From Stanieria sp. NIES-3757 (lineage in GTDB: Bacteria; Cyanobacteriota; Cyanobacteriia; Cyanobacteriales; Xenococcaceae), in NCBI GenBank assembly GCA_002355455.1, contig AP017375.1, positions 3,224,001 through 3,288,000 of the forward strand: 64,000 bases of DNA, given 5' to 3'. This document shows, piece by piece, positions 8,853 through 22,343 of this stretch. Numbering within the stretch: position 1 is the first letter of the stretch; each line of letters begins with the position of its first letter. A model generated the notes under the pieces. It made no database searches. It saw only the letters and a program-made list of their open reading frames with translations, and was not told the DNA's origin. Made by a program: the position numbers and the translations under genes.

Positions 8853-9893
8853 ATGCAAAAACTGTTCAAGCTCCGAAAATTCTTTTTGATTGGGGTAATT
8901 GTTAGTTTGGTCGTTATTTATTCTGGCTCGGCTATCAAAACAACTAGGGCTACTGCTGACAACGGCGTTGAATTAACGCTGGTGTCTTACGCCGTTACCG
9001 AAAATGCCTACAAAAACATCATTGCCAACTTTACTAAGCAATGGCAGGAAAAAACAGGGCAAACTGTTAACTTCAATCAAAGTTATGGAGGTTCTGGTTC
9101 GCAAACTCGTGCTGTTATTGATGGTTTAGAAGCAGATGTAGTTGCTTTAGCTCTTGCCCTCGATACCAAAAAAATTGAAGAAGGAGGATTAATTCAACCT
9201 GGTTGGGAACAAGAATTCCCAAACGGTTCAATTGTTACCAAGTCTGTTGCTGCATTGGTCAAACGCGATGATACCATTGCTGTTAATGGATGGTCTGATT
9301 TAGCTAATGATGGGATTCAAGTAGTTACTGCTAACCCGAAAACCTCTGGTGGCGCACGTTGGAATTTTCTGGCACTTTGGGGTTCTGTGACTCAAGCAGG
9401 AGGAAGCGAACAACAAGCTACAGATTTTATTAGTAAAGTATTTCAAAATGTACCTTTACTACCTAAAGATGCTCGTGAAGCTAGTGAAGTTTTCTTTAAC
9501 CAGGATCAGGGTAACGTCTTAATTAATTATGAAAATGAAGTACTTTTAGCCAACCAACAGGGTAAAAATTTACCTTATTTAGTACCTACAGACTACAATA
9601 TTTCAATTGACAATCCAGTTGCCATTGTTGATGAAAATGTTGACAGACATGGCAATCGGGAAGTAGTAGAAGCCTTTGTTGAGTATTTATTTACGCCTGA
9701 AGCACAAAGAGAATTTGCTAAAGCTGGATTTCGTTCTGTCGATCCGACAGTAGCTCAAGAGTTTGCCTCTCAATATCCAACCATCAATAATCTGTTTACG
9801 GTAGAAGATTTAGGTGGTTGGGACTCAATTCAAAGCAAATTCTTTGAAGATGGAGCTATTTTCGACCAAATTGTGGCTCAAGCAAGTAAATAG
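8853..9893 (+). CDS. sbpA: Periplasmic sulfate-binding protein of an ABC transporter
   Basis: The product captures sulfate (or thiosulfate) in the periplasm for ABC import. A signal peptide covers about residues 1-36 (KFFLIGVIVSLVVIYSGSA). The mature part shows the family motifs LTLVSYAVTENAYKNI, NQSYGGSGSQTRAV, ADVVALALALD, NPKTSGGARWNFLA and NYENEVLLA. The length of 346 is normal. No cysT or cysW permease gene follows; the ATPase cysA lies 3 kb further on the opposite strand. A rightward LysR regulator follows it. Identity as a sulfate-class binding protein is strong; thiosulfate preference cannot be excluded. Confidence 0.93.
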   Translation: MQKLFKLRKFFLIGVIVSLVVIYSGSAIKTTRATADNGVELTLVSYAVTENAYKNIIANFTKQWQEKTGQTVNFNQSYGGSGSQTRAVIDGLEADVVALALALDTKKIEEGGLIQPGWEQEFPNGSIVTKSVAALVKRDDTIAVNGWSDLANDGIQVVTANPKTSGGARWNFLALWGSVTQAGGSEQQATDFISKVFQNVPLLPKDAREASEVFFNQDQGNVLINYENEVLLANQQGKNLPYLVPTDYNISIDNPVAIVDENVDRHGNREVVEAFVEYLFTPEAQREFAKAGFRSVDPTVAQEFASQYPTINNLFTVEDLGGWDSIQSKFFEDGAIFDQIVAQASK

Positions 9894-10090: not shown

Positions 10091-11050
10091 ATGACATTCG
10101 AGCAGTTACGAATTTTTTTGGCTGTAGTAGAACATTTACACTTTACTCGTGCTGCCGATGCTCTTTATATTACTCAACCTGCTGTTAGTGCTGCGATTCA
10201 AAATTTAGAAGCAGAATATGGTGTCAAGTTATTTCATCGCATTGGTCGTCATATTGAAATTACCGAAGCTGGAAAACTCTTACACACAGAAGCACAAAAA
10301 ATTCTCGATCAGGTAACGATAACAGAACGAGCATTAAAAGAGTTAAATGATTTGCAAAGAGGAGAGTTGAGATTGGGAGCAAGTTTTACTGTTGGCAACT
10401 ATTGGCTACCAGAAAAGATTCGCAAGTTTAAACAAATATATCCTCATCTTTCGATTAACTGCACTCTTGCTAATGCAGAAAAAATTGTTAAGGGAACAGT
10501 AACAGGACATTTAGATCTTGGTTTATTAGCTGGAGAAGTTAAACTATCACTACAAAATAATTTAGAACAAAAAATAGTGGGAAGCGATCGCTTGCAAATT
10601 GTGGTTGGTAAATCTCATCCTTGGTTTAAACGAACCACAATTAATGTTAAAGAACTAACAACTACAACTTGGATTATGCGAGAAACTGGTTCAGGAGCTC
10701 AACAAATGTTTGAGCAAGCTTTACAAAAATGGGGAATTACGCCTAACAAACTTAAGGTAATGTTTGTTTTAAATAGTAGCGAAATGATTAAAACATTAGT
10801 AGAAAAAGGTGTTGGAGCAGCAGCAGTTCCTGAGTTAATGGTTCAGAAAGAAATCCAATTCTCGACACTCAATTGTGTCAAGATCGAACATCCAACTCAA
10901 GATATAACTTTTGATATTATTAGACCTGTTTTATTAGTCAAACATCGTCAACGCTTTCAAACTAAAATATCTAAAGCTTTTGAGGCAATCTTGATAGAAC
11001 AAGAAACTAAGAATATTAGAGCTTTATTAGAAGCTAGAGAACACGAATAA
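10091..11050 (+). CDS. LysR-type transcriptional regulator
   Basis: This has the standard LysR form with 319 residues. The winged helix-turn-helix is at residues 1-60 (LHFTRAADALYITQPAVS, then LEAEYGVKLFHR), with a linker helix and a periplasmic-binding-type effector domain from about 90 (GELRLGASFTVGNYWLP). GGAG precedes the ATG by about eight bases. It lies 200 bases downstream of sbpA on the same strand, so it may control sulfur uptake genes, but LysR effectors cannot be read from sequence. RbcR/CbbR-like and CysB-like roles are both possible. Confidence 0.9.
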   Translation: MTFEQLRIFLAVVEHLHFTRAADALYITQPAVSAAIQNLEAEYGVKLFHRIGRHIEITEAGKLLHTEAQKILDQVTITERALKELNDLQRGELRLGASFTVGNYWLPEKIRKFKQIYPHLSINCTLANAEKIVKGTVTGHLDLGLLAGEVKLSLQNNLEQKIVGSDRLQIVVGKSHPWFKRTTINVKELTTTTWIMRETGSGAQQMFEQALQKWGITPNKLKVMFVLNSSEMIKTLVEKGVGAAAVPELMVQKEIQFSTLNCVKIEHPTQDITFDIIRPVLLVKHRQRFQTKISKAFEAILIEQETKNIRALLEAREHE

Positions 11051-11078: not shown

Positions 11079-11939
11079 TTATTTGTCACGATTTTTCATA
11101 AAATTATCTAATTCTAACTCTAATAATTTGGTATGGTCATTACCCATAATTAAAGGTAGTTTACCATCCCATTTTTCAATCGCTTGTTTTTTCAAAAGTT
11201 CATTATTTAAAGTTGTACGGATTAATCCTTGAGCTTCCGCTTCTCCTCTGGCTAAATTGACTTTGGCTTCGGCTTCTTTTGCTGCTTTAATTGCCATAAA
11301 TCCCGCTCGTTTAGCTTCCTGTTCGGCAATTTGTTTTGCTTCTACTGCTTCGCCAAATCTTTCAGAAAAGTGAACATGAACTAGAGAAATATCATCAACC
11401 GCAAGATGATATGGAGTGAGTCTTTCGGTTAAAAAAGTATCTACTTCGGCTTTTACTGCTCTTCTTTTAGTAATAATTTCTTCCGCTGTATATTCAGCCA
11501 TCACTGCTTTAAGTACTTCTTCAACGGCTGGATTGATAATACGGTCGACAATTGACTTTTTGTTACCAATTTGTTGAAAAATCAAATTACTTTCTTCTGG
11601 ATTAATATGCCAATTAAGTGCTACATCAGTAAAAACATCTTGGAGATCTTTTGAAGAAGCTTCCGCAGAAATTTCTTGTTTTTGAACCCTAACACTTAAT
11701 TTTTCAACAGTATCAACTATTGGAATGATTATATGAATACCTTCGTCTAATACTCGCTCTTGGATTTTACCAAATGTCATTAAAACCCCTCGTTCTCCTG
11801 CATGAACGATTACCAAACAATTAGCAAGAAAAAATGTCAAGGTCAAAACTAAAAATATTCTACTGGCGAGAAAGGTATCTTTATTCGTTTTTTGATTGGA
11901 TTTTAAATTTTTCTTTTGCTCATTCAATTCTATATTCAT
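11079..11939 (-). CDS. Prohibitin-type SPFH/Band 7 membrane protein
   Basis: A 286-residue protein with one N-terminal transmembrane helix (residues 27-46, IFLVLTLTFFLANCLVIVHA). Then comes the prohibitin SPFH domain (GERGVLMTFGKIQERVLDEG, IINPAVEEVLKAVMAEYTAEEI), followed by an Ala/Glu-rich coiled coil (EQEAKRAGFMAIKAAKEAEA). Prohibitins form ring-like membrane scaffolds and often modulate AAA proteases such as FtsH. It is convergent with the LysR gene and sits upstream of nothing obviously related. The 57-base gap to the cysR-like gene, on the same strand and transcribed before it, allows co-transcription. Confidence 0.88.
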   Translation of the reverse strand: MNIELNEQKKNLKSNQKTNKDTFLASRIFLVLTLTFFLANCLVIVHAGERGVLMTFGKIQERVLDEGIHIIIPIVDTVEKLSVRVQKQEISAEASSKDLQDVFTDVALNWHINPEESNLIFQQIGNKKSIVDRIINPAVEEVLKAVMAEYTAEEIITKRRAVKAEVDTFLTERLTPYHLAVDDISLVHVHFSERFGEAVEAKQIAEQEAKRAGFMAIKAAKEAEAKVNLARGEAEAQGLIRTTLNNELLKKQAIEKWDGKLPLIMGNDHTKLLELELDNFMKNRDK

Positions 11940-11996: not shown

Positions 11997-12584
11997 TTAA
12001 ATCTCGTAGTACCATACTTCTTCTTCTCGTAATAAAATTTGACGCAGCGGAAGACGTTCGATCATTCCTTGTTCTTCCAAATTTTTTAATGCACGAGTAA
12101 TAGTTACTCTAGTTGAACCCAAGATTTCAGCCATGTCTTGATGAGTAAGTTGAAAATCAATTAAATATCCAGTTTCTATTTGACGACCAAATTTTTTAGC
12201 TAACCAAGCCAAAAACTTGATCAATGCTATTTCAATTCTTTTATGACTACGAATAATACTTAATTCTTCTAATTGATTGATATGATTAAATAGATTGACT
12301 GTTAAGTTATCTTCCTGTTGCCAAGAAAAATTAATAGCTTTTACTTCTGTAAGACACTCTATTGTATAAGGCTCTATTTTTGATAAGGACTGCCCAACAA
12401 TATCTCCTTCTCCCCAGATACCTAAAGTTACAATCGAACCATCTTCAAGCCACGTTAAAGTTCTTACTACTCCTGCTTCAATTTTCCAAACATTATATGT
12501 ACCATCGGGAAAAGTGACATGGCGTTTAAAGCGATGATAAATTCCTTTAGCTACAAGGTTAGATAAAGACGAAGAAGAAAACAT
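11997..12584 (-). CDS. cysR: Crp/Fnr family regulator, CysR-like
   Basis: A 195-residue Crp/Fnr protein. The N-terminal half is a cyclic-nucleotide-type beta barrel (FPDGTYNVWKIEAGVVRTL, GIWGEGDIVGQSL). The C-terminal third is a winged helix with recognition motif LTHQDMAEILGSTRVTITRA. Cyanobacterial CysR, which controls sulfate transport, is a short protein of this kind and is encoded in sulfate transport clusters. Its position one gene-gap downstream of cysA and near sbpA supports that name. NtcA is unlikely because its diagnostic HTH differs. The assignment rests on family plus context, not on a binding site. Confidence 0.65.
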   Translation of the reverse strand: MFSSSSLSNLVAKGIYHRFKRHVTFPDGTYNVWKIEAGVVRTLTWLEDGSIVTLGIWGEGDIVGQSLSKIEPYTIECLTEVKAINFSWQQEDNLTVNLFNHINQLEELSIIRSHKRIEIALIKFLAWLAKKFGRQIETGYLIDFQLTHQDMAEILGSTRVTITRALKNLEEQGMIERLPLRQILLREEEVWYYEI

Positions 12585-12870: not shown

Positions 12871-13878
12871 TTAAGAGCGAACAAAAGATTTAGTTTCTTT
12901 CAGTTTAATAAAAACTTTTTGTCCTGTTTGTAGAGCTAACTCACTAAACTTATCACGACTCAATTGAACATTTAAAGGTAAACTATCATCAATCATTAAT
13001 TCGGCTTGAACTTGATAACCTAAATTAATCACTCTTTGTAATTTACCAGTCGCTACTTTTTCATCAGGAGAAGTTAATAGTTCGATATCGTGGGGACGTA
13101 CAAAAACTTTATTGTCATGGGTTGGTAACCCCAGCTTTTGGCAAAAGTCGACATGATCGGGCAATACATTTACTTCTCCAATAAAACTCATCACAAAAGG
13201 ACTAGCTGGGCGGTCATAGATTTCTTCTACTGTTCCTACTTGTTCGATTTGACCTTGATTCATGACCACAATTCGATCCGCTACTTCCATCGCTTCTTCG
13301 CGGTCGTGAGTAACTAAAATCGTAGTAACGCCAACTTGTTCGTGAAATTTACGCAACCAAGCACGAAGTTCTTTGCGAACTTTAGCATCTAAAGCACCAA
13401 AAGGCTCGTCTAATAATAGAACTTGGGGTTCAACAGCTAAAGCACGTGCGAGAGCAACTCTTTGTCTTTGTCCACCAGATAGTTGACTCGGATAGCGATC
13501 GCTGAATCCTTGTAACTGGATTAAGTCTAATAATTCTTCTACTCTTTTTTTTATAGCTGAAGGAGAATACTTGCGAATCGTCAGTCCAAAAGCAATATTT
13601 TTCCAGATTGTTAAGTGTTTGAATAAAGCATAATGCTGAAACACGAAGCCAATATTGCGCTTTCTAATATCAAGATTAGTAGTATCTTGCTTGTTGATAA
13701 ATATCTTGCCTGTATCAGGAGGTTCAAGACCTGCGATCGCTCTTAACAGGGTAGATTTTCCCGATCCCGAAGGACCTAATAACGCTACTAAACTCCCCGA
13801 ATTTACTTTTAAATCGATCTGATTTAAAGCTTGAAAATTGCCAAATTGCTTTGATACTTTTTCAATGACAATACTCAT
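12871..13878 (-). CDS. cysA: Sulfate/thiosulfate ABC transporter ATP-binding subunit
   Basis: The ATPase that powers sulfate import. Walker [10 protein letters not shown], signature [15 protein letters not shown], Walker [12 protein letters not shown] and the switch His in [11 protein letters not shown] are all intact. They are followed by a TOBE-type regulatory domain from about residue 235 ([11 protein letters not shown]). The 335-residue length and the GEVNVLPDH segment match the CysA group. The partner permeases CysT and CysW are not beside it, and the binding protein gene points away 3 kb to the left. It must use permeases encoded elsewhere. Confidence 0.9.
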
Positions 13879-14248
13879 GAAAATTCCTATTTAGTTGACT
13901 AATACTGTTGATTTGCTAAAAAAAACAAGCAAAAATAAGTTACTTAATTTACAGATTAAGCTAGTAAAAAAAATCTTTAGATATCTGACTTGGACTTTTA
14001 AGCTATATTTTTACGCTATCGATAAAAATCATATTATCGTGTAAATCGCTAAAAAAAACACCAAAAAAGCTTTCAATAAATTTTATTTATTAATTTAAAA
14101 AGAAAGAATATTTGATTCTATTAAATAGTTTTTCTAAAGTGAAATAGTCCCTAGAAAGCAAGTCGGCCAGAACTAAAACAGGGTCTAAAAGTTAAATTTT
14201 GGGTCTTTGCATCCCATTGAGAGAACCATGAAGTAGAGAAACTAAATT
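13879..14248. other. Divergent intergenic region upstream of cysA and the APC permease
   Basis: About 370 AT-rich bases between divergent genes, so it holds both promoters. I searched it for a yybP-ykoY manganese riboswitch, which can precede TerC-type genes, and see no matching conserved core. No RNA gene or small coding frame with a ribosome site is visible. Confidence 0.6.
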
Positions 14249-15739
14249 ATGACCACCAAAATCAAACATAGGCAAAACACTCATGGTTTAAAGCCTGATT
14301 GCCTATCCTTTAAAGAAGTTCTAGCTCAATCTTTTGCCGTTATTGCACCTACTACTATACCAGCATCTAACCTCGGTTTAATAGTTGCCCTTTCAGGCAA
14401 TGGTACTTGGCTTAGTTTTTTAATCGGCTTAATCGGTTTAGTCTTGGTCAGTATTAATATTAATCAGTTTGCCAGTCGTTCCGCTTCTCCAGGTTCGCTT
14501 TATTCTTACATCGTACAAGGATTAGGTCCAACAGCAGGAGTTATTTGCGGTTGGAGTTTAGTACTGGCTTATTTATTTACAGGTATGTCAGTTTTATGTG
14601 GATTTGCAAGCTTTAGCGGTGTTTTATGCGGTCATCTGGGCATTCACCCTTCTAGCATAACTTTGCTGTCAATGGGCGCAGGAATTGCTTGGTATGCAGG
14701 TTATAAAGATATTCAACTCTCAGCTATGGCGATGCTGTGGATAGAAGGAGTATCTCTGTTGCTAATCCTGATGTTAGGGTTTGTCATTTGGCAACACCAC
14801 GGTTTTGTCTTAGATATGTCTCAATTAACTCTTGAAGGAGTAACACCAGGTCATTTGGCAACAGGACTAGTTTTGGTTATGTTTGGTTTTTCTGGTTTTG
14901 AAAGTGCTACTTCTTTAGGACATGAAGCTAAAAAACCTTTAAAAACGATCCCCAAAGCAGTTATGGGTAGCGTTATTTTGGCAGGTTTGTTCTTTATTGT
15001 GATGACCTATGTTGAAATTTTAGGTTTTAGTAGTACAGGAATGTCAATTACTGAAGTCGAAGAACCCCTTGGCTTTTTGTCTCGTGAGATGGGAATCGGT
15101 TGGTTAGGAGAATTAATTGGATTTGGAGCTTTATTTAGCTTTTTTGCCTGTGTCTTGGGCAGTATCAATCCCGCAGCCAGAATTTTCTTTTCGATGGCGC
15201 GTCATGGTTTGTTTCCTGCTTCTTTAGGCACAACTCATTTAGCTAACCGCACACCTCACGTTGCTGTCACCATTTGCTCATTTTTAGTCTTTCTGGTTCC
15301 TGCTGTTCTATCTCTATTTGAGATCAAACTGTTTGAAAGTATGGGTTATTTAGGAGCAATGTGCAGTTACGGATTTTTAACCGTCTACATTTTGATTTCT
15401 CTTGCTGCACCTATCTATCTACATAAAATTAGAAAACTTCGTCTTCAAGATGTAGTCTTTTCCATCAGCGCGATCGCTTTTATGATGATTCCTCTTCTGG
15501 GAAGTGTGGGAATTCCTGGTAGCAAACTTTTCCCACCTCCAGAAGCTCCTTACAATCTTTTTCCTTATTTATTTTTAATCTATATGACTCTAACTTCTGG
15601 CTGGTTTATCTTTCAAAAATCTCGTTTCCCAGGGATCACAAGAGCGATGAAGCGAAGTATGGAAGAAATTCAAGAACAGTTGGCTACTCCAGAAACAGTT
15701 CCTTCAATGCCAACCAGAAATTACCCATACGAAGATTAA
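14249..15739 (+). CDS. APC family amino acid/polyamine permease
   Basis: A 496-residue polytopic protein with about twelve hydrophobic segments and the APC signature near the start: SFKEVLAQSFAVIAPTT, then ASNLGLIVALSGNGTW. GFSGFESATSLGHEAKKP is the family's conserved TM6-loop segment. The C-terminus is cytoplasmic and charged (RAMKRSMEEIQEQLA). The substrate cannot be predicted beyond an amino acid or amine. It opens a same-strand run of six genes; the next gene follows by 12 bases, so it is almost certainly co-transcribed with the cadmium-type transporters. Confidence 0.87.
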   Translation: MTTKIKHRQNTHGLKPDCLSFKEVLAQSFAVIAPTTIPASNLGLIVALSGNGTWLSFLIGLIGLVLVSININQFASRSASPGSLYSYIVQGLGPTAGVICGWSLVLAYLFTGMSVLCGFASFSGVLCGHLGIHPSSITLLSMGAGIAWYAGYKDIQLSAMAMLWIEGVSLLLILMLGFVIWQHHGFVLDMSQLTLEGVTPGHLATGLVLVMFGFSGFESATSLGHEAKKPLKTIPKAVMGSVILAGLFFIVMTYVEILGFSSTGMSITEVEEPLGFLSREMGIGWLGELIGFGALFSFFACVLGSINPAARIFFSMARHGLFPASLGTTHLANRTPHVAVTICSFLVFLVPAVLSLFEIKLFESMGYLGAMCSYGFLTVYILISLAAPIYLHKIRKLRLQDVVFSISAIAFMMIPLLGSVGIPGSKLFPPPEAPYNLFPYLFLIYMTLTSGWFIFQKSRFPGITRAMKRSMEEIQEQLATPETVPSMPTRNYPYED

Positions 15740-15751
15740 GGAGCAACAATA

Positions 15752-16483
15752 ATGAGTGAATTAGTTACGGCAATTCCCACAGGTTTAACTGCCTTTTGTG
15801 CCACCAATCTAGATGATATTCTTATTTTGCTACTCTTTTTTTCTCAGGTAAATGGTTCATTTCGTCGCCGACATATTATAGCAGGTCAATATCTTGGTTT
15901 TACTACCTTAGTTTTAGCAAGTCTACCTGGTTTTTTTGGCAGTCTAATTTTACCAAGACCTTGGATTGGATTATTAGGAATTCTTCCTGTTGTCATTGGT
16001 ATTAGTCGTTTATTAGAGCAAAAAACTGATGATTTTGAAGAAGAAGAAGAAATAGAACCAGTTTCAAAAGACTCTTTTTTGAGTTTTCTTTCTCCTCAAA
16101 CCTATGGGGTAGCAGCAGTTACTTTTGCTAATGGAGGTGATAATATCGGCATTTATGTACCATTATTTGCGAATAGTAGTTGGTCGAGTTTACTGGTAAT
16201 TATTGGTGAGTTCTGGTTATTGGTAGGTATTTGGTGCTACGCTGCCTATAAATTGACTAAAACTAAAGCGATCGCGGAGTTATTAACTCGTTATGGCAAC
16301 AATTTAATTCCTTTTGTCCTGATTGCTTTGGGTGTTTTGATTTTGTTGGATAGTCAGACCTTATCCAATCCTACCTTAACGGTAATAGCTCTACTTGCTA
16401 GCAGTTTTGCTTTGATGAGTTTAAATAAAAACAATGAGCAACTTTGTGAAATTACTTCGTCAACAACCCAATTAGACAAGTAA
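15752..16483 (+). CDS. Cadmium resistance transporter family (PF03596-like), copy 1
   Basis: A 243-residue membrane protein with five or six hydrophobic segments. Diagnostic segments are CATNLDDILILLLFFSQVN with its membrane Asp pair, RRRHIIAGQYLGF, and the half-repeat VTFANGGDNIGIYVPLFA. These are the CadD/Cad family hallmarks within the LysE superfamily. An acidic loop (DDFEEEEEIEP) follows TM3. AAGGAG precedes the ATG. A paralogue follows 25 bases later and aligns over its whole length. A metal-cation exporter is the likely role; the ion is unknown. The C-terminal tail is longer than in copy 2. Confidence 0.88.
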   Translation: MSELVTAIPTGLTAFCATNLDDILILLLFFSQVNGSFRRRHIIAGQYLGFTTLVLASLPGFFGSLILPRPWIGLLGILPVVIGISRLLEQKTDDFEEEEEIEPVSKDSFLSFLSPQTYGVAAVTFANGGDNIGIYVPLFANSSWSSLLVIIGEFWLLVGIWCYAAYKLTKTKAIAELLTRYGNNLIPFVLIALGVLILLDSQTLSNPTLTVIALLASSFALMSLNKNNEQLCEITSSTTQLDK

Positions 16484-16508
16484 CTAGGGAGGTAATCACT
16501 ACTACATC

Positions 16509-17186
16509 ATGAGTTGGTGGGTAAGAACTGTGATCGCAGGAAGTACAGCGTTTGTTGCAACTAATATCGATGACATAATTATCTTAATGCTGTTTTTCTC
16601 CCGAACGAATAGCTCTTTTCGTCGCCGACACATTGTAGTAGGTCAGTATTTAGGTTTTGTTGCCTTGATCGTAGCGAGTCTTCCAGGTTTCTTTGGTGGT
16701 TTAATCGTACCGCGAGCTTGGATCGGATTACTCGGGATCGTTCCTATCATCATTGGAATTAGTCATTTAATGAATGGCAAGGAAGATGAGCAGGAAATCA
16801 AAACAGTCTCAGATGCTCACCGCCAAGAAGGAAACAAATCATTTTTTAGTAAGGGGATCGCTAAAAGCTTACTCGTGGTAATTGCACCACAAACTTATCA
16901 AGTTGCAGCAGTCACCTTTGCCAATGGTGGAGATAATATTGGTATTTATGTACCATTGTTTGCTAGTAGTAATCTAGCCGATTTAGGAATTATCCTTTTA
17001 ACTTTTTTTGTTTTAATCGGAGTTTGGTGCTACGTAGCCTATCAATTAGCCCGTCATCCACTGATTGCTCGTGCCTTAACCAAATACGGTAAGCGTGTTG
17101 TTCCCTTTGTCTTGATTGGATTAGGAATTTTCATTTTGGTAGAAAGTGGTACTTACCAACTCTTATCTTCATTTCAATTCAAGTAA
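16509..17186 (+). CDS. Cadmium resistance transporter family (PF03596-like), copy 2
   Basis: A 225-residue paralogue of the preceding gene. It repeats the same motifs: VATNIDDIIILMLFFSRTN, FRRRHIVVGQYLGF, PGFFGGLIVPRAWIGLLG and VTFANGGDNIGIYVPLFA. The middle loop is basic and polar (DAHRQEGNKSFFSKG) where copy 1 is acidic, and copy 1's C-terminal tail is missing. The GGGAGG before the start is about 15 bases from the ATG, longer than usual. The pair is a tandem duplication that has diverged in the loops, which fits a heteromeric or differently regulated pair. Metal specificity is not readable. Confidence 0.87.
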   Translation: MSWWVRTVIAGSTAFVATNIDDIIILMLFFSRTNSSFRRRHIVVGQYLGFVALIVASLPGFFGGLIVPRAWIGLLGIVPIIIGISHLMNGKEDEQEIKTVSDAHRQEGNKSFFSKGIAKSLLVVIAPQTYQVAAVTFANGGDNIGIYVPLFASSNLADLGIILLTFFVLIGVWCYVAYQLARHPLIARALTKYGKRVVPFVLIGLGIFILVESGTYQLLSSFQFK

Positions 17187-17279
17187 GTAAAAGTTTTGCC
17201 CTCGTTCAAATTGTTTTATCTTCGTAACTTAATTACGAAGAACTAATGACACATAAGTAATTAAATAAGGAGAAAATCC

Positions 17280-17903
17280 ATGAAACTCTGGAAAACTATT
17301 TTATTAGGTTTATTACTCTGTTTCAATTTTGCGATCGCTAAACCCGCTTTAGCAGACAGACCAAATTTTAAAGATAATCCCGACTACATTGAGATAACCG
17401 AGAATCTCAACAAGTTATTAGAAGCAAAACAGAAAAATACTTTGCCTGAAGGAGTAAATGCCAGCGAAGTAAACCAAACAATTGCCCAACTGCAATTTGA
17501 GAAATATATTATCGAGAATGGCGAAGAAACTACAGTATGTCGCAACGAAACAGGAAAAAGTTTAGTTGTTTACGGTTCCAAATCTAAAAAAAGTGATTCT
17601 ACTTACGATAATGCCCTTTATCTCTTGCCAGATGGTCAAACCACTGATGATGACTGGAATTGTGAGGGAGTTTACTTACCTAATGATGTTAAGGTAGCCG
17701 GTTTAGATTTGAACAGTGCAGCAGCAGTTAAAACTCTCAACGGAACTAATTTAGTAGTTAAAGCTAACCCCGACACTGGTATTTATCAATTAAATCTTCC
17801 TCCTGCAAAAGTATTTAAAGCTGGAGAAGCTAATTGGGATATTCCCGATTTATCCCAAGCAAGTCTTGATATTCAATACCCCAAAGCACCTATTGACGAC
17901 TAA
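17280..17903 (+). CDS. Secreted protein of unknown function, 207 aa
   Basis: I do not recognise a named domain. A clean signal peptide (residues 1-26, LWKTILLGLLLCFNFAIA then KPALA/DRP) predicts export. The mature protein is acidic and soluble, starts with a helix (EITENLNKLLEAKQ) and then is strand-rich. It has two Cys about 40 residues apart (TVCRNE and WNCEGV) that could form a disulfide. AAGGAG precedes the ATG. It lies inside the transporter array, 93 bases after copy 2 of the cadmium-type transporter, which suggests a periplasmic partner such as a metal or substrate binder; that is inference only. Confidence 0.75.
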   Translation: MKLWKTILLGLLLCFNFAIAKPALADRPNFKDNPDYIEITENLNKLLEAKQKNTLPEGVNASEVNQTIAQLQFEKYIIENGEETTVCRNETGKSLVVYGSKSKKSDSTYDNALYLLPDGQTTDDDWNCEGVYLPNDVKVAGLDLNSAAAVKTLNGTNLVVKANPDTGIYQLNLPPAKVFKAGEANWDIPDLSQASLDIQYPKAPIDD

Positions 17904-18016
17904 TCTAAACAGTTATCAGTTAGCAGGGAATAAAGAAAACAAATAAAAACTTCTTCCTTTTCCCCTGCTACACCAACTTTTTTGCAATTGATATAAAACT
18001 TGAAGAGGTTTAATTA

Positions 18017-18454
18017 ATGCTGTTACTATTCAAACCTATTAAAACTGAAAAAGATCGAGAAAATTTAGAGAAACCAAAACGTCGAAATTCTTCCCGTGTA
18101 AGAGATCACTTGGCAAACGAACGCACTTATCTAGCTTGGATGCGGACGGCGATATCTTTAATGGGTTTTGGTGTTGTTATTGTCCGCCTACGCTTTTTTA
18201 AGCCACCCATAACTACTACTCCTGGTAATGGCTGGAAGTTAGGATTGATCTTTTCTTTGGTGGGTTTAGTAACGGTATTACTTTCAACTCATCATTACTT
18301 TGCCGTGCGCCATGACATAGATGAAGATACTTACGAACCACCAGATCGTTGGGTATTACTGTTTAGTCTAGCTGTCGTGCTTATGGGCGCAGGTATTATT
18401 TATTATGTTTTTACCTTGCCTCTTAGTCCGATTAACACTCTTGTCTTTGAATAA
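18017..18454 (+). CDS. DUF202 (YidH-like) membrane protein
   Basis: A 145-residue protein with a basic cytoplasmic N-terminus and three transmembrane helices. The DUF202 signature RDHLANERTYLAWMRTAISL lies at about residues 29-48, followed by the helix MGFGVVIVRLRFF. YidH-like proteins occur in many bacteria, and the domain is shared with eukaryotic VTC proteins, but their role is undefined. It is the fifth gene of the transporter array, 113 bases after the secreted protein and 36 before terC. Confidence 0.87.
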   Translation: MLLLFKPIKTEKDRENLEKPKRRNSSRVRDHLANERTYLAWMRTAISLMGFGVVIVRLRFFKPPITTTPGNGWKLGLIFSLVGLVTVLLSTHHYFAVRHDIDEDTYEPPDRWVLLFSLAVVLMGAGIIYYVFTLPLSPINTLVFE

Positions 18455-18490
18455 TAAAAATTTCTAGGAATTATGTAATAGGAAGAAAAG

Positions 18491-19231
18491 ATGTGGTATG
18501 AGTTAATTAAATCGATGGGTGCAATTTTATCTTTTAGCACTCTAGGAATTTTGATATCTTTAATTGCTTTAGAAATAGTTCTTTCTGCTGACAATGCTAT
18601 GGCTTTAGCTGCTCTAGTTCAGCATCTGGAAAACTCTAACGAACGCGATCTTGCTTTAAATTGTGGTTTAGGATTAGCTTTTATTTTGCGCATCACGTTA
18701 ATCTTAACTTCTACTTGGGTAATTCAGTTTTGGCAGTTTGAACTGTTAGGCTCTTTTTATTTATTATGGCTATCAGGCAAGTATTTTTGGCAACGTTTTT
18801 GGGTAAGAGAATTAAATTTTGACGCTATTGAATCAAATAATTATCAATCTAATTGGTTGTGGCAAATTATTCCCGCTATTGCTCTGACAGATCTAGCCTT
18901 TTCTTTAGACAGTGTAACCACAGCAGTTGCTCTTTCTAGTAAAGTGTTTTTGATTTTAGCAGGTGGTATTATTGGAGTTATTGCGCTGCGTTTTTTAGCT
19001 GAATTGTTTGTCCAATGGCTGACAGAATTTACTTATCTGGAAGATGCTGCTTACTTGACAATATTTTTTGTCGGAATGCGATTGTTTGCTAAAGTCTTAG
19101 TTCCAGTTTACGTAATACCAGAATGGTTAATGATTATCTCGATCATAACTCTTTTCTCCTGGGGATTTTCCAAGCGTGTTTTTCCTCAAGTAGCTACCAT
19201 CACTTCTAGTTATCATTTTGAAAAAAAATAA
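18491..19231 (+). CDS. TerC family integral membrane protein
   Basis: A 246-residue protein with about seven transmembrane helices. Both TerC membrane-Asp motifs are present: ALEIVLSADNAMALAALV early on and ALTDLAFSLDSVTTAVAL in the middle. TerC proteins belong to the LysE superfamily, and characterised members export manganese or metallate exoprotein cargo. This makes three LysE-superfamily transporters in one array. The 3' end of the gene and its downstream flank are duplicated at 19974-20170. In context it is likely a metal efflux pump; the ion is not readable. Confidence 0.9.
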   Translation: MWYELIKSMGAILSFSTLGILISLIALEIVLSADNAMALAALVQHLENSNERDLALNCGLGLAFILRITLILTSTWVIQFWQFELLGSFYLLWLSGKYFWQRFWVRELNFDAIESNNYQSNWLWQIIPAIALTDLAFSLDSVTTAVALSSKVFLILAGGIIGVIALRFLAELFVQWLTEFTYLEDAAYLTIFFVGMRLFAKVLVPVYVIPEWLMIISIITLFSWGFSKRVFPQVATITSSYHFEKK

Positions 19232-19291
19232 TATTTGTTTTGAATTAGTGGTCATTTTTAACTAACATTTTCACGGACAAGCGATCGCTGT

Positions 19292-19559
19292 TTAATAAAC
19301 TTCGTCATGAGTACCAACATCTAACAAAGCTATAAGTGTTTCACCGCTTTCTTCTTCCGTTTCAACAGCAAAGACAATTCGACAGTCATACCCACAAGAG
19401 CAAGATAATAAACCCGATAATTTTCCTTCCAGCTTATGAGTACCTAAACTCAGACAATTCAGCAATTGCTTTTTCAATCTGTGCTTGCAACTGTGTATTA
19501 CGGCGGGCAAATTTGCGAAATGCTCTCTTGAATTTATTGGAGACGACTATTTTGCTCAT
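19292..19559 (-). pseudogene. RelE/YafQ-type toxin gene disrupted by a frameshift
   Basis: Two overlapping leftward frames together spell one RelE/ParE-superfamily toxin. From ATG 19559 one frame gives MSKIVVSNKFKRAFRKFA then QAQIEKAIAEL, and stops after 41 codons. A second frame continues with SLGTHKLEGKLSG, then SCGYDCRIVFAVE and LLDVGTHDEVY, the usual C-terminal half with its central GYD.RI strand. Relatives have about ten extra residues between the halves, so a small deletion plus frame change broke the gene. The start overlaps the antitoxin stop as TAATG. A pseudogene is the best reading; a sequencing error would not explain the missing residues. Confidence 0.7.
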
Positions 19560-19780
19560 TATTCATGCTGGAGGAATTCTCGAAGAGATGCGATCGCTTC
19601 TTCAGCACTTTGCGCTTTTAATTTGCCTGCTTTAAATTCAGCTAGAGAAGTTTTAGCATCAGTAGCAATTTCATCTCTGCGTCGCTCTATCATACGACGT
19701 TGTAGGATTTGTATCAACATTTCCTGTTGTTCAAGTGGCAAATCCATTGCCTCATCTAAAACTTTATCTAGGCTTGTCAT
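19559..19780 (-). CDS. Antitoxin component of a type II toxin-antitoxin pair
   Basis: A 73-residue, highly charged, all-helical protein (LPLEQQEMLIQILQRRMIERR, then EIATDAKTSLAEFKAGKLK and EEAIASLREFLQ). It has the size and order expected for the antitoxin that precedes a YafQ/RelE-like toxin. Its TAA stop overlaps the toxin ATG as TAATG, implying translational coupling. The toxin reading frame is now broken, so this gene may be an orphan on the way to loss. The DNA-binding fold is not obvious. Confidence 0.7.
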   Translation of the reverse strand: MTSLDKVLDEAMDLPLEQQEMLIQILQRRMIERRRDEIATDAKTSLAEFKAGKLKAQSAEEAIASLREFLQHE

Positions 19781-19914
19781 TACATTGACCCGACACTCTA
19801 TCTGCTATTGATGATAACAGCATGAAGATCAAAGAACTGCTCAAAAAAAAATGAATCAACTTCAAAATAACTTTCTCTTGATTTTATTCTATAGTAATAT
19901 CTAGACAATTAAGA

Positions 19915-19973
19915 GCGATCGCGAATGCGCCAGCGAAGCTGTCCGCTCCGCGCCTCGCCAAGGGCGAGATCGC
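19915..19973. repeat. HIP1-bounded small dispersed repeat, 59 bp
   Basis: A GC-rich block begins with GCGATCGCG and ends with GGCGAGATCGC. The same two ends bound a 35-bp element inside the aldo/keto reductase gene at 31644. The shared termini and different middles fit the small HIP1-associated dispersed repeats described in cyanobacteria. It abuts the duplicated terC tail. Confidence 0.65.
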
Positions 19974-20170
19974 AACTCTTTTCTCGTGGGGATTTTCCAA
20001 GCGTATTTTTCCCCAAGCAGCTATAGCAGTACAAGTAAAGATTAGGACGTTATTAATCGTAGGGGCGAATGGCCATTCGCCCTTACAAAATTTTTCTGTC
20101 TTAATCTTTTTACGTAACGCTATACCATCACTTCTAGTTATCATTTTGAAAAAAAATAATATTTGTTTTG
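19974..20170 (+). pseudogene. Duplicated terC 3' end and flank, split by a MITE-like insertion
   Basis: Bases 19974-20023 match 19147-19196 (the end of terC) with about four substitutions. Bases 20125-20170 match 19197-19243, including the terC stop and flank. The two halves are contiguous in terC but separated here by the 99-bp element described next plus a duplicated TA. The copy has no promoter or start, so it is a relic. The degenerate toxin-antitoxin pair lies between this copy and the true terC tail. Confidence 0.8.
20024..20122. mobile_element. 99-bp MITE-like element flanked by TA duplication
   Basis: Comparison with the intact terC tail shows exactly what was inserted. The element starts TAGCAGTAC...AAAGATTA, and its far end read in reverse starts TAGCGTTAC...AAAGATTAAGAC, giving imperfect terminal inverted repeats of about 25 bases. 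TA is present on both sides and only once in terC. TA target duplication is typical of IS630/Tc1-mariner-type elements. The centre holds a palindrome, GTAGGGGCGAAT...ATTCGCCCTTAC (20059-20086). There is no coding capacity, so it is non-autonomous. Confidence 0.75.
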
Positions 20171-20319
20171 ATTAAGTAGAAACCATAATATTAAGTTCAG
20201 CAACTATTGAAGATATCTGACCATAGCCATCACTTCCAATCAGCTTCAACAATAAAGAATTATCTCAAAAATTTGTCAGCATATCTAAAAATCTAAGCCC
20301 TAATCTTAGGAGAAATCTA

Positions 20320-20991
20320 ATGAACACAAAATTTTCCCAAAAACTAACTCAGGTTTGTTCAACTATATTTTGTCTAGTACTTCTAATCACATTATTCTTG
20401 TTTAACCAGCCTAATGCTAACGCTGTGACAAAATTGAAGCAAACTTTCTCTGAGCCATCTTATCAAAGTCCAATTTCTTCAAAGAGAGAGATCCCATCTC
20501 CTGAACCTACAGTTACTGAGTCTACACCAATTTCAACTCCAGAGCCAATTATATCTCCAACAATAGTACCTAGAGAATCTGTCTCCAGTAACGTGACTCG
20601 TTTATTACAAACCAATGAATGTGTTGGTTGTAATCTTGCTGGCGCATCTTTAAAAGATACTAATCTACAAGCAGCCAATTTAGAAGGAGCTAATTTACAA
20701 GGTGCAGACTTAGAAAGAGCCAACTTACAAAAAACCAACTTGATAGGTGCAAACCTACAGGGAGCAGACTTAGGTAAAACCAATATCGCAGGAGCAAATT
20801 TAGAAAGAGCAAATCTCTTTGATGCAGATTTAGAAAAAGCAAATTTAGAAGGAACAAATTTGGCAGGCGCAAATTTACAAGAAGCAGATTTAGAAAAAAC
20901 TAACTTAGCATCCGCCAACCTGCAAGGAGCAAACTTGAAAGGAGCAGATCTAGAAGATGCAATTTTACCTACTGCAATGGTAATTCGTTAA
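20320..20991 (+). CDS. Secreted pentapeptide-repeat protein
   Basis: A signal peptide or anchor (residues 15-36, FCLVLLITLFLFNQPNANA) is followed by a Pro/Ser/Thr-rich linker to about residue 95. Then comes an uninterrupted pentapeptide-repeat domain with consensus A(N/D)LxG/x of about 22 repeats (ANLEGANLQGADLERANLQ), which folds as a right-handed quadrilateral beta helix. Two Cys (NECVGCN) sit just before the repeats. AGGAG precedes the ATG. Such exported pentapeptide proteins are common in cyanobacteria; their partners are mostly unknown. The repeat generates long but meaningless antisense frames. Confidence 0.9.
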   Translation: MNTKFSQKLTQVCSTIFCLVLLITLFLFNQPNANAVTKLKQTFSEPSYQSPISSKREIPSPEPTVTESTPISTPEPIISPTIVPRESVSSNVTRLLQTNECVGCNLAGASLKDTNLQAANLEGANLQGADLERANLQKTNLIGANLQGADLGKTNIAGANLERANLFDADLEKANLEGTNLAGANLQEADLEKTNLASANLQGANLKGADLEDAILPTAMVIR

Positions 20992-21059: not shown

Positions 21060-21722
21060 TTAAGATTTTTCGATGATTAATCCAGTTAAAAATAACTTGA
21101 CCGTCAATACTACTGCTATTGTCCAAGCTAGTGCAATCATCCAACCTGCCACAATATCGCTAGGATAATGAACTCCCAGATAAAGTCGCGTCCAAGCAAT
21201 ACTGACCACAAATAAGCTACTAAAAATTACAACTAACCAACGCCAGGAGCTATTCCAAGTCAAAATTATTAAAATAAGAGCAAAAGACATACTAGAGATA
21301 GCATGACCGCTAGGAAACGAATAATCGGTTCCCACCTGATAAAATAATTCCCATAGACGAGGTCTGGCTCTATGGATAATGATTTTCCCTGTATAGCTAA
21401 TGCTAATAGCACCTAAGAAAGTAATGACTGTATAAATCAAGAAATTCCAGCGTTTAGCAATTAAAAAACTTAAAGCCATTCCGATCACTAAAGGAGTAGT
21501 CGTCCAAAAACTACCTAAATTAGTTAAAGTTGCTGCTAATAAATTCAATTTTTCTCCCGTTTGATCATGAATTGTCAATAGGATGGGTAATTCCCAACTC
21601 AAAGCACCTTCATGATTATGTACTGCAAGTAACAGTATGATAAAAATTTGTAATGGGAAATAAACGCCCAACAACAGTAATATTAAAGCTTGATTTTGGT
21701 TCTGTTTCAGCAAAGTATTCAA
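21060..21722 (-). CDS. PAP2 superfamily membrane phosphatase
   Basis: A 220-residue integral membrane phosphatase, probably acting on a lipid phosphate or undecaprenyl pyrophosphate. All three PAP2 motifs are intact: KIIIHRARPRLWE, SFPSGHAISS with the catalytic His, and TRLYLGVHYPSD with the nucleophile His and Asp. Five to six transmembrane helices surround them. The first coding base is close to a hypothetical membrane-protein gene but 195 bases apart. Substrate is not readable. Confidence 0.92.
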   Translation of the reverse strand: MNTLLKQNQNQALILLLLGVYFPLQIFIILLLAVHNHEGALSWELPILLTIHDQTGEKLNLLAATLTNLGSFWTTTPLVIGMALSFLIAKRWNFLIYTVITFLGAISISYTGKIIIHRARPRLWELFYQVGTDYSFPSGHAISSMSFALILIILTWNSSWRWLVVIFSSLFVVSIAWTRLYLGVHYPSDIVAGWMIALAWTIAVVLTVKLFLTGLIIEKS

Positions 21723-21917
21723 ATCTAGATTTCGATTAAATGTTTTTATTTCAAACTGGAGCGACTAACTTCCAGCTTACTAGCTCTGAAATTACATAAG
21801 TAGCAAATCTGAGTAACCTTTGAGGTGCTATCTGACAAACTTTTGTACCTACTAATACTCCTGGGATTGATCCCATCTAAATTGGTATGACTAAATTTCA
21901 GTCAAATGTTGAAAAAG

Positions 21918-22343
21918 TTAGTCGATTGGCAAAAATAATTTGATATTGAAAGATTGTCCTTCCGCAAATAAATCTGGAGTGTTGAGGATATTGAATTGTA
22001 GTAAAAGCAAAATAATTATCGTATAAATAGTAGAAGACGCTAATCCCATCAATAATTCTTTTTTGAAATTGCGTTCTTGAGATTGTTCTTGAACGACATC
22101 TAACACGCCTATTTGCATTAACAAAATTCCCAACACGTTAGAAAGCCAATATCCCGCGATCGCACAGGGTAAAAACAAATTGGCAGAAAATTTACTACAG
22201 ATATATCCAAAAAAATAAGCAAGGGGCAAATTGAAAAACAGATCGTTCCACCAAGAAAGGGGCGACAATAAAAATCCTAATCCTACTAGTATCAAGCCTT
22301 TTAGTTTTCTCAAAGAATTTATTGTATTAAAGTTTTGAAGCAT
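21918..22343 (-). CDS. Hypothetical membrane protein, 141 aa
   Basis: Not recognised. It has three or four hydrophobic segments: LKGLILVGLGFLLSPLSWW, LPLAYFFGYICSKF, LFLPCAIAGYWLSNVLGIL and LASSTIYTIIILLLLQFN. They are joined by a short charged loop (VQEQSQERNFKKELL). The PLSWWNDLFFNLPLAY region is distinctive and Trp-rich. It is on the same strand as the PAP2 gene, upstream of it. The organisation looks protein-like and no other frame competes. Confidence 0.7.
   Translation of the reverse strand: MLQNFNTINSLRKLKGLILVGLGFLLSPLSWWNDLFFNLPLAYFFGYICSKFSANLFLPCAIAGYWLSNVLGILLMQIGVLDVVQEQSQERNFKKELLMGLASSTIYTIIILLLLQFNILNTPDLFAEGQSFNIKLFLPID

Follow-up and report, generated by a model that had tools for sequence, protein, structure and literature searches.

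Six transporter-type genes of Stanieria sp. NIES-3757 as the candidate transport end of a LysR-linked sulfur module of cyanobacteria

What common task, if any, is served by the six genes that lie in a row at positions 14249-19231 of a 64,000-nucleotide stretch of the genome of Stanieria sp. NIES-3757? The stretch (the window; positions 3224001-3288000 of a 5.32-Mb contig in a 5.46-Mb genome; all coordinates below are window positions) encodes there an APC permease, two Cad-type transporters, an exported protein without family (17280-17903, here labelled SecX), a DUF202 protein and a TerC protein. The original prediction, made from these letters alone, took the array for a metal or osmolyte homeostasis module. 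On balance, we favour a different answer, namely that the six genes represent the transport end of a LysR-controlled sulfur-homeostasis module found in many cyanobacteria; most likely they are part of a module that handles sulfur compounds, and not a stand-alone metal pump, because the module is kept together, usually next to a regulator gene and often with genes for sulfate or sulfite transport close by.

The array itself was confirmed as described: six plus-strand open reading frames (ORFs) with gaps of 12, 25, 93, 113 and 36 bases, and Pfam assignments (AA_permease, two Cad, DUF202, TerC, and no family for the exported protein) that agree with the families first named. The exported protein has the expected signal-peptide-like start (judged by eye) and a mature part with two cysteines. 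The counts of loci given below refer to a scan of named genomes that yielded 105 SecX relatives, the best 80 loci of which were combined with positions 7001-28000 of the window (81 loci). The six genes are:

14249..15739, plus strand: APC-family amino acid permease (Pfam AA_permease, 8.2e-26; in 35 of 81 loci)
15752..16483, plus strand: Cad-family transporter 1, Cad1 (PF03596, 114.5 bits, cut-off 26.2; 7.9e-33)
16509..17186, plus strand: Cad-family transporter 2, Cad2 (PF03596, 138.8 bits, cut-off 26.2; 2.6e-40)
17280..17903, plus strand: SecX, exported protein without family (predicted helical hairpin and beta domain; invariant Cys87 and Cys128)
18017..18454, plus strand: DUF202 membrane protein (PF02656, 72.3 bits, cut-off 23.4; 4.4e-20)
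18491..19231, plus strand: TerC/YkoY-family protein (TIGR03716, 172.4 bits, cut-off 138.5; TerC Pfam 8.5e-43)

Within the order, 35 of 148 genomes gave a match to SecX (including the window's own genome; one weak match was excluded later, hence n = 34 in other counts), and within the phylum 37 of 386 did so, all of them from the window's class; relatives are also present in three records of the plasmid collection. A Cad gene is located within 5 kb of 46 of the 50 SecX copies, and such neighbours occur in 33 of 34 SecX genomes. Immediately before SecX, a same-strand Cad gene was found for 69 of 90 SecX genes (median gap, 104 bases), and a same-strand DUF202 gene follows immediately for 44 of the 90 (median gap, 235 bases). 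The wider unit consists of a LysR gene divergent from APC-Cad-(Cad)-SecX-(DUF202), often accompanied by genes for TauE/SafE exporters, a sulfate ABC transporter or cysteine synthase; the divergent side of LysR is occupied by Cad in 25 and by APC in 23 of 57 cases. Clustering of the ORFs of the 81 loci (E <=1e-10, 60% coverage; cluster names based on one to three scanned members per cluster) gave, per 81 loci, Cad 74, LysR 57, DUF202 56, m155 42, TauE 41, APC 35, SPFH 35, Sbp 18, TauE2 17, PAP2 17, DUF1634 16, CysK 15, Rrf2 13, NIL 12, CysT/W 12 and Crp 10; a cluster labelled CysA contained mixed ABC ATPases and was left out of sulfate-specific counts. The comparison of gene order in other cyanobacterial genomes, which had been named beforehand as a check, showed that the order recurs in many of them, and the claim of a coherent module was upheld by this recurrence and by the SecX-Cad adjacency.

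A further SecX-Cad-DUF202 set (locus L040; by cluster also L048 and L049) was observed near phosphate ABC transporter genes, where it adjoins the genes of a polyphosphate kinase (PPK2) and of a sulfate-binding protein; because of these neighbours, some copies of the module may also be tied to phosphate. Among the matches listed in a search of titles and abstracts of the open-licence literature for the families and the regulator, no description of the module was found. A possible connection with slr0967 and sll0939, two acid-stress genes of Synechocystis, was dropped without sequence comparison.

The extent first assigned to the unit was correct for the location of the six genes but too short for the conserved unit, which reaches past 14249-19231 on both sides, with these parts:

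10091..11050, plus strand: LysR-type regulator (Pfam LysR; orthologue of the operon-divergent LysR elsewhere)
14088..14139, minus strand: conserved 52-bp promoter element upstream of the APC gene (38.4 bits, matrix built without the window)
20139..20190, minus strand: weaker counterpart of this element in front of the pentapeptide gene (second copy, 23.5 bits)
20320..20991, plus strand: pentapeptide-repeat protein with signal-peptide-like start (Pfam Pentapeptide, 9e-41; behind the second element)

In the window the LysR gene is displaced from the operon by about 3 kb relative to its divergent position in other cyanobacteria. Of the 148 genomes, 35 have an orthologue of this regulator (profile A3, E <=1e-90); Cad is present in 33 and SecX in 30 of these 35. 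A Cad gene is no more than 8 kb away from 33 of the 36 LysR genes (5 of the 36, including the operon copy of genome G007, carry one internal stop codon). Three LysR genes are located away from Cad, and two of these adjoin TauE/SafE genes: a solo LysR gene in genome G065 is placed between a TauE gene (with an intervening transposase) and a DUF1634-TauE pair, and a second LysR copy in G007 is divergent from a TauE gene of half length; the third, in G002, is on a contig without recognised partner.

The nearest solved relative of the window LysR is 8sbf (125.5 bits; next relative, 101.8 bits; CysB among the matches), which is named solely as a LysR-family regulator. The printed part of 8sbf itself has YeiE as its best model (299.8 bits; cut-off 480) and barely passes PRK10837 (282.1 bits; cut-off 281). 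For the window LysR the best model is NF040786 (214.6 bits), and its cut-off of 250 is likewise missed. Passages of PMC12880088 describe YeiE as binding sulfite and controlling sulfite resistance, and according to passages of PMC12423496 its Glu145 separates sulfite from sulfate. At the equivalent position (147 in the window LysR), 63 members of the LysR family have Thr (32), Glu (27) or Ala (4), and Ser98, Thr100 and Ser201 are invariant (63/63). The 24 Glu-bearing LysRs form one group among the 57 members from the named loci and the window. Glu is also present in the LysRs of loci L219, L220 and L222 (with TauE, no SecX), and Thr in that of L223 (a stretch with Cad, without TauE or SecX). 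The Glu/Thr/Ala split was observed to follow different LysR lineages. Judged from its sequences, the LysR family looks like a sulfur-anion sensor, of which the window member need not read sulfite.

The element upstream of the APC gene, which was found by counting shared 8-mers, also occurs in the intergenic regions between LysR and operon in other species; of its 23 instances, 9 non-redundant ones gave the 52-column matrix. The 8-mer AATCAAAT is present in 25 of 48 such regions; without redundancy the count is 16 of 33, compared with 8 for the top 8-mer in three shuffled sets, and two A-rich 8-mers are as common as or commoner than AATCAAAT in the real set (21 and 16). In 32 control stretches of 20 kb (seven genomes, spread positions chosen by hand) the top score of the matrix was 16.8 bits. 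The sister locus L033 has the element pair too (41.5 and 22.1 bits), locus L034 has a strong first (40.0 bits) and a weak second copy (9.6 bits), and 9 of 11 further loci scanned have a site of at least 24.2 bits. LysR presumably binds this element, which could also be a core promoter. A 20-base pattern gave two exact sites genome-wide, the APC one and G000:C1:430258, with no recognised sulfur-gene ORF in the 3-kb stretch listed for the latter, and with up to two mismatches there were 8 sites versus 9 for the reversed control pattern; the short pattern alone therefore defines no regulon. A palindromic motif sampler returned A+T-rich patterns of no clear value, scans for sigma-70 sites (18 versus 17.1 in shuffles) and terminators (2 versus 4.2) were at chance, and the Rfam scan of 13000-20500 gave a single match, under its gathering score.

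The link to sulfur is provided by the neighbours. Of 34 genomes with SecX, 12 have a sulfate-binding-protein gene (TIGR00971) at most 20 kb away from it, and for Cad the same holds in 17 of 44; about 0.6 and about 1.3 genomes, respectively, would be expected if genomes of 6 Mb are assumed. Five of the 17 Cad-linked genomes are outside the SecX list, three without SecX (G007, G095, G112) and two with SecX elsewhere (G083, G140). For TerC, taken as control family, the linkage was 4 of 88 genomes versus 0.9 expected; the control is imperfect, since both the window and G007 have TerC in this operon. When only loci of at least 18 kb are considered, 22 of 54 contain Sbp, CysT/W or CysK, and 37 of 54 when TauE/SafE is included. 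None of the 32 control stretches contained any of the families in the reference set (E <=1e-20, half of subject length). In a co-culture of Chlorogloeopsis fritschii, sulfate transporter genes and genes named 'cadmium resistance transporter', likened to the window genes by name only, were induced together, as stated in passages of PMC11423583; sulfate was measured, and starvation was considered unlikely by the authors.

A sulfur-homeostasis module could operate as follows. The LysR of the YeiE branch (10091-11050) would read a sulfur signal, i.e. sulfite, sulfate or a related anion, and would switch on, via the element upstream of APC, an operon of the APC permease, one or two Cad-type exporters, SecX, DUF202 and, in this lineage, TerC; the secreted pentapeptide protein may be switched together with it. 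As the sulfur flux changes, the substrate carried across the inner membrane by the membrane proteins would be a sulfur compound, the amino-acid form of such a compound or a counter-ion; SecX would act in the periplasm, and TauE/SafE exporters may take part in other species. The co-transcription of the operon, the direction of transport and the membership of the pentapeptide gene are inferred in this scheme.

Several observations weigh against a role in sulfur handling. In 22 of 34 SecX genomes, SecX has no sulfate-binding-protein gene at a distance of up to 20 kb (short contigs hide some), 17 of 54 long loci are without any listed sulfur gene, and the expected numbers and Fisher tests take no account of kinship among the genomes. 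The window's own cluster is without TauE, which the sister cluster has, and the element is missing at two LysR loci with TauE alone (5.4 and 6.4 bits). The window LysR misses the cut-off of the YeiE equivalog model NF040889 (177.4 bits; cut-off 480, a strict value that 8sbf itself does not reach), and the position of YeiE Glu145 is Ala147 (8sbf alignment; the aligned Glu of 8sbf was taken as Glu145 by counting along the printed chain); the sulfite-sensor version is weakened because the sulfite-specific Glu of YeiE is Ala here. Finally, the Cad proteins keep acidic residues as in cation carriers.

This last point belongs to the explanation closest to the original prediction, in which Cad1, Cad2 and TerC export divalent cations for metal homeostasis and the sulfur link reflects thiol supply for detoxification. 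The family names are in its favour, Cad being named a cadmium-resistance family and TerC belonging to TerC/YkoY, as is the fact that D21, D22, N127, G128 and N131 (Cad1 numbering) are at least 95% conserved among 136 aligned Cad proteins. However, both Cad proteins miss the cut-off of the CadD subfamily (TIGR00779, 181.65 bits; Cad1, 143.2 bits; Cad2, 162.1 bits), and the regulators in the annotated recurrent clusters are LysR, Rrf2 and Crp, with no ArsR, MerR or Fur among these clusters (unlabelled ORFs are partly annotated). Moreover, the recurring neighbours are sulfate ABC transporter, cysteine synthase and TauE/SafE genes, and two of the three solo LysR genes are located by TauE/SafE. We therefore consider a metal module unlikely and do not retain the metal or osmolyte assignment; Cad or TerC may nevertheless transport cations, in the case of Cad because the acidic residues are kept.

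A second alternative is a cysteine/cystine shuttle, with APC importing and Cad exporting a sulfur amino acid and SecX engaged in periplasmic thiol-disulfide exchange. It would account for the APC family membership, for the invariant Cys87 and Cys128 of an exported protein, and for the presence of cysteine synthase in 15 and of an Rrf2-family regulator in 13 of 81 loci; the only Rrf2 protein scanned matches CymR, at 92.6 bits and thus under the cut-off of 195. The APC protein, however, is far under the cut-offs of all 13 NCBIfam models listed, four of its six solved relatives carry the name cationic amino acid transporter, and Cad is, to our knowledge, not the family of known cysteine exporters, so that we regard the shuttle as quite improbable. 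That the genes are neighbours without shared function, carried together in a transporter-rich region, would fit the varying cluster membership (APC in 35 and DUF202 in 56 of 81 loci) and the rarity of TerC, but is very improbable in view of the repeatedly conserved order, the co-occurrence in genomes and the common upstream element.

The sulfur-homeostasis reading can be extended, tentatively and with more doubt than confidence, to the proposal that CadD-type carriers of the LysE superfamily were recruited in cyanobacteria into a LysR-switched export machine for sulfur stress, with SecX (unmatched fold), DUF202 and TerC as partners. If so, the cyanobacterial 'cadmium resistance' family would mainly serve sulfur homeostasis, and lineages sensing different sulfur anions would be told apart by Glu, Thr or Ala in the ligand site of LysR.

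SecX yielded no Pfam match (E <=0.1), no NCBIfam match and no sequence match in the PDB (E <=10). Cys87 and Cys128 are the only cysteines of its mature part and are invariant in all 63 aligned sequences, the window included. AlphaFold models have predicted local distance difference test scores of 90.0 (whole protein) and 93.3 (beta domain), and no Foldseek match in the PDB was obtained with them at E <=0.001; VIA matches were weak, with Z values of at best 6.6 for the helical hairpin (56 residues) and 3.7 for the beta domain. This lack of a fold match does not show a new fold.

The following features flank or adjoin the operon:

8853..9893, plus strand: sulfate-binding protein of a sulfate ABC transporter, Sbp (TIGR00971, 235.6 bits, cut-off 155.5)
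11079..11939, minus strand: SPFH/Band 7 protein (Pfam Band_7, 1.5e-34; recurrent neighbour, 35 of 81 loci)
11997..12584, minus strand: Crp-family regulator (Pfam HTH_Crp_2; CysR-like by position only; under the cut-offs of the five NCBIfam models listed)
12871..13878, minus strand: sulfate ABC transporter ATPase, CysA (TIGR00968, 423.6 bits, cut-off 342.75)
19977..20177, plus strand: repeated, broken TerC 3' end (before the pentapeptide gene; sister stump at the corresponding place)
21060..21722, minus strand: PAP2-family protein (by the Pfam match of its L033 counterpart; recurs as neighbour in 17 of 81 loci)
21918..22343, minus strand: small hydrophobic protein m155, without family (L033 member without Pfam match; 42 of 81 loci)

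In the sister locus L033 a TauE/SafE gene was observed between the PAP2 and m155 genes. Since only 195 bases (21723-21917) are left at this place in the window, TauE was probably lost from the window locus; five TauE-family genes over the cut-off are encoded elsewhere in the same genome.

Of the six genes, TerC shows the weakest conservation, and it was absent from all 20 loci mapped first; TerC-family genes as such are present in 124 of 148 genomes. A recent insertion of TerC, suggested by this absence, was rejected, since L033, which has no TerC gene, retains a 29-codon TerC end before its pentapeptide gene (tblastn, E 1.8e-12); because of this stump TerC is most likely an old member in the window lineage that was lost in the sister. 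The trace in L034 is faint (E 0.085). In G007, a genome of another family and without SecX, the series LysR, APC, Cad, Cad, DUF202, TerC is found, and in the tree the operon TerC groups with this series-end TerC and with the TerC genes of G095 and G112, apart from the other TerC of the window's own genome (long branches, hence uncertain). Near-identical copies of the TerC 3' end (19195-19249 and 20123-20177; 19150-19196 and 19977-20023) are about 0.8-0.9 kb apart, and between them a YafQ-like toxin gene (weak match) and a second small gene (19292-19780) resemble a toxin-antitoxin pair.

A sulfur module of this kind would provide a testable context for three poorly understood families, cyanobacterial Cad, DUF202 and SecX, tied to one regulator and one element, and a candidate system for the handling of excess or toxic sulfur intermediates in oxygenic phototrophs; annotations as 'cadmium resistance transporter' in cyanobacteria may thus mislead.

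Among known systems, the cyanobacterial sulfate permease is encoded by sbpA and cysTWA with the Crp-family regulator CysR, a name that also appears among the references of PMC8049743. Similarly, the genes on the flanks of the window operon include Sbp, CysA and a Crp-family gene; CysT and CysW, however, are encoded elsewhere in the genome, away from the operon, and we know of no APC-Cad-SecX-DUF202 operon in the described permease cluster. The Cad proteins of the window pass the Pfam cut-off as members of the family of the CadD cadmium-resistance transporters, but differ from CadD in being below the subfamily cut-off, linked to LysR and often near sulfur genes. TauE/SafE sulfite exporters fall into two ORF clusters, one present in 41 and the other in 17 of 81 loci, and stand beside two solo LysR genes, and are missing from the window's own cluster. 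There is also a likeness to the YeiE-YeiH sulfite-stress system of enteric bacteria, in which, according to passages of PMC12880088, a LysR of the YeiE branch is likewise divergent from a membrane transporter gene; the cyanobacterial module has APC, Cad, SecX and DUF202 in place of YeiH, and its window LysR, with Ala at the Glu145 position and a score below the YeiE cut-off, would control the operon.

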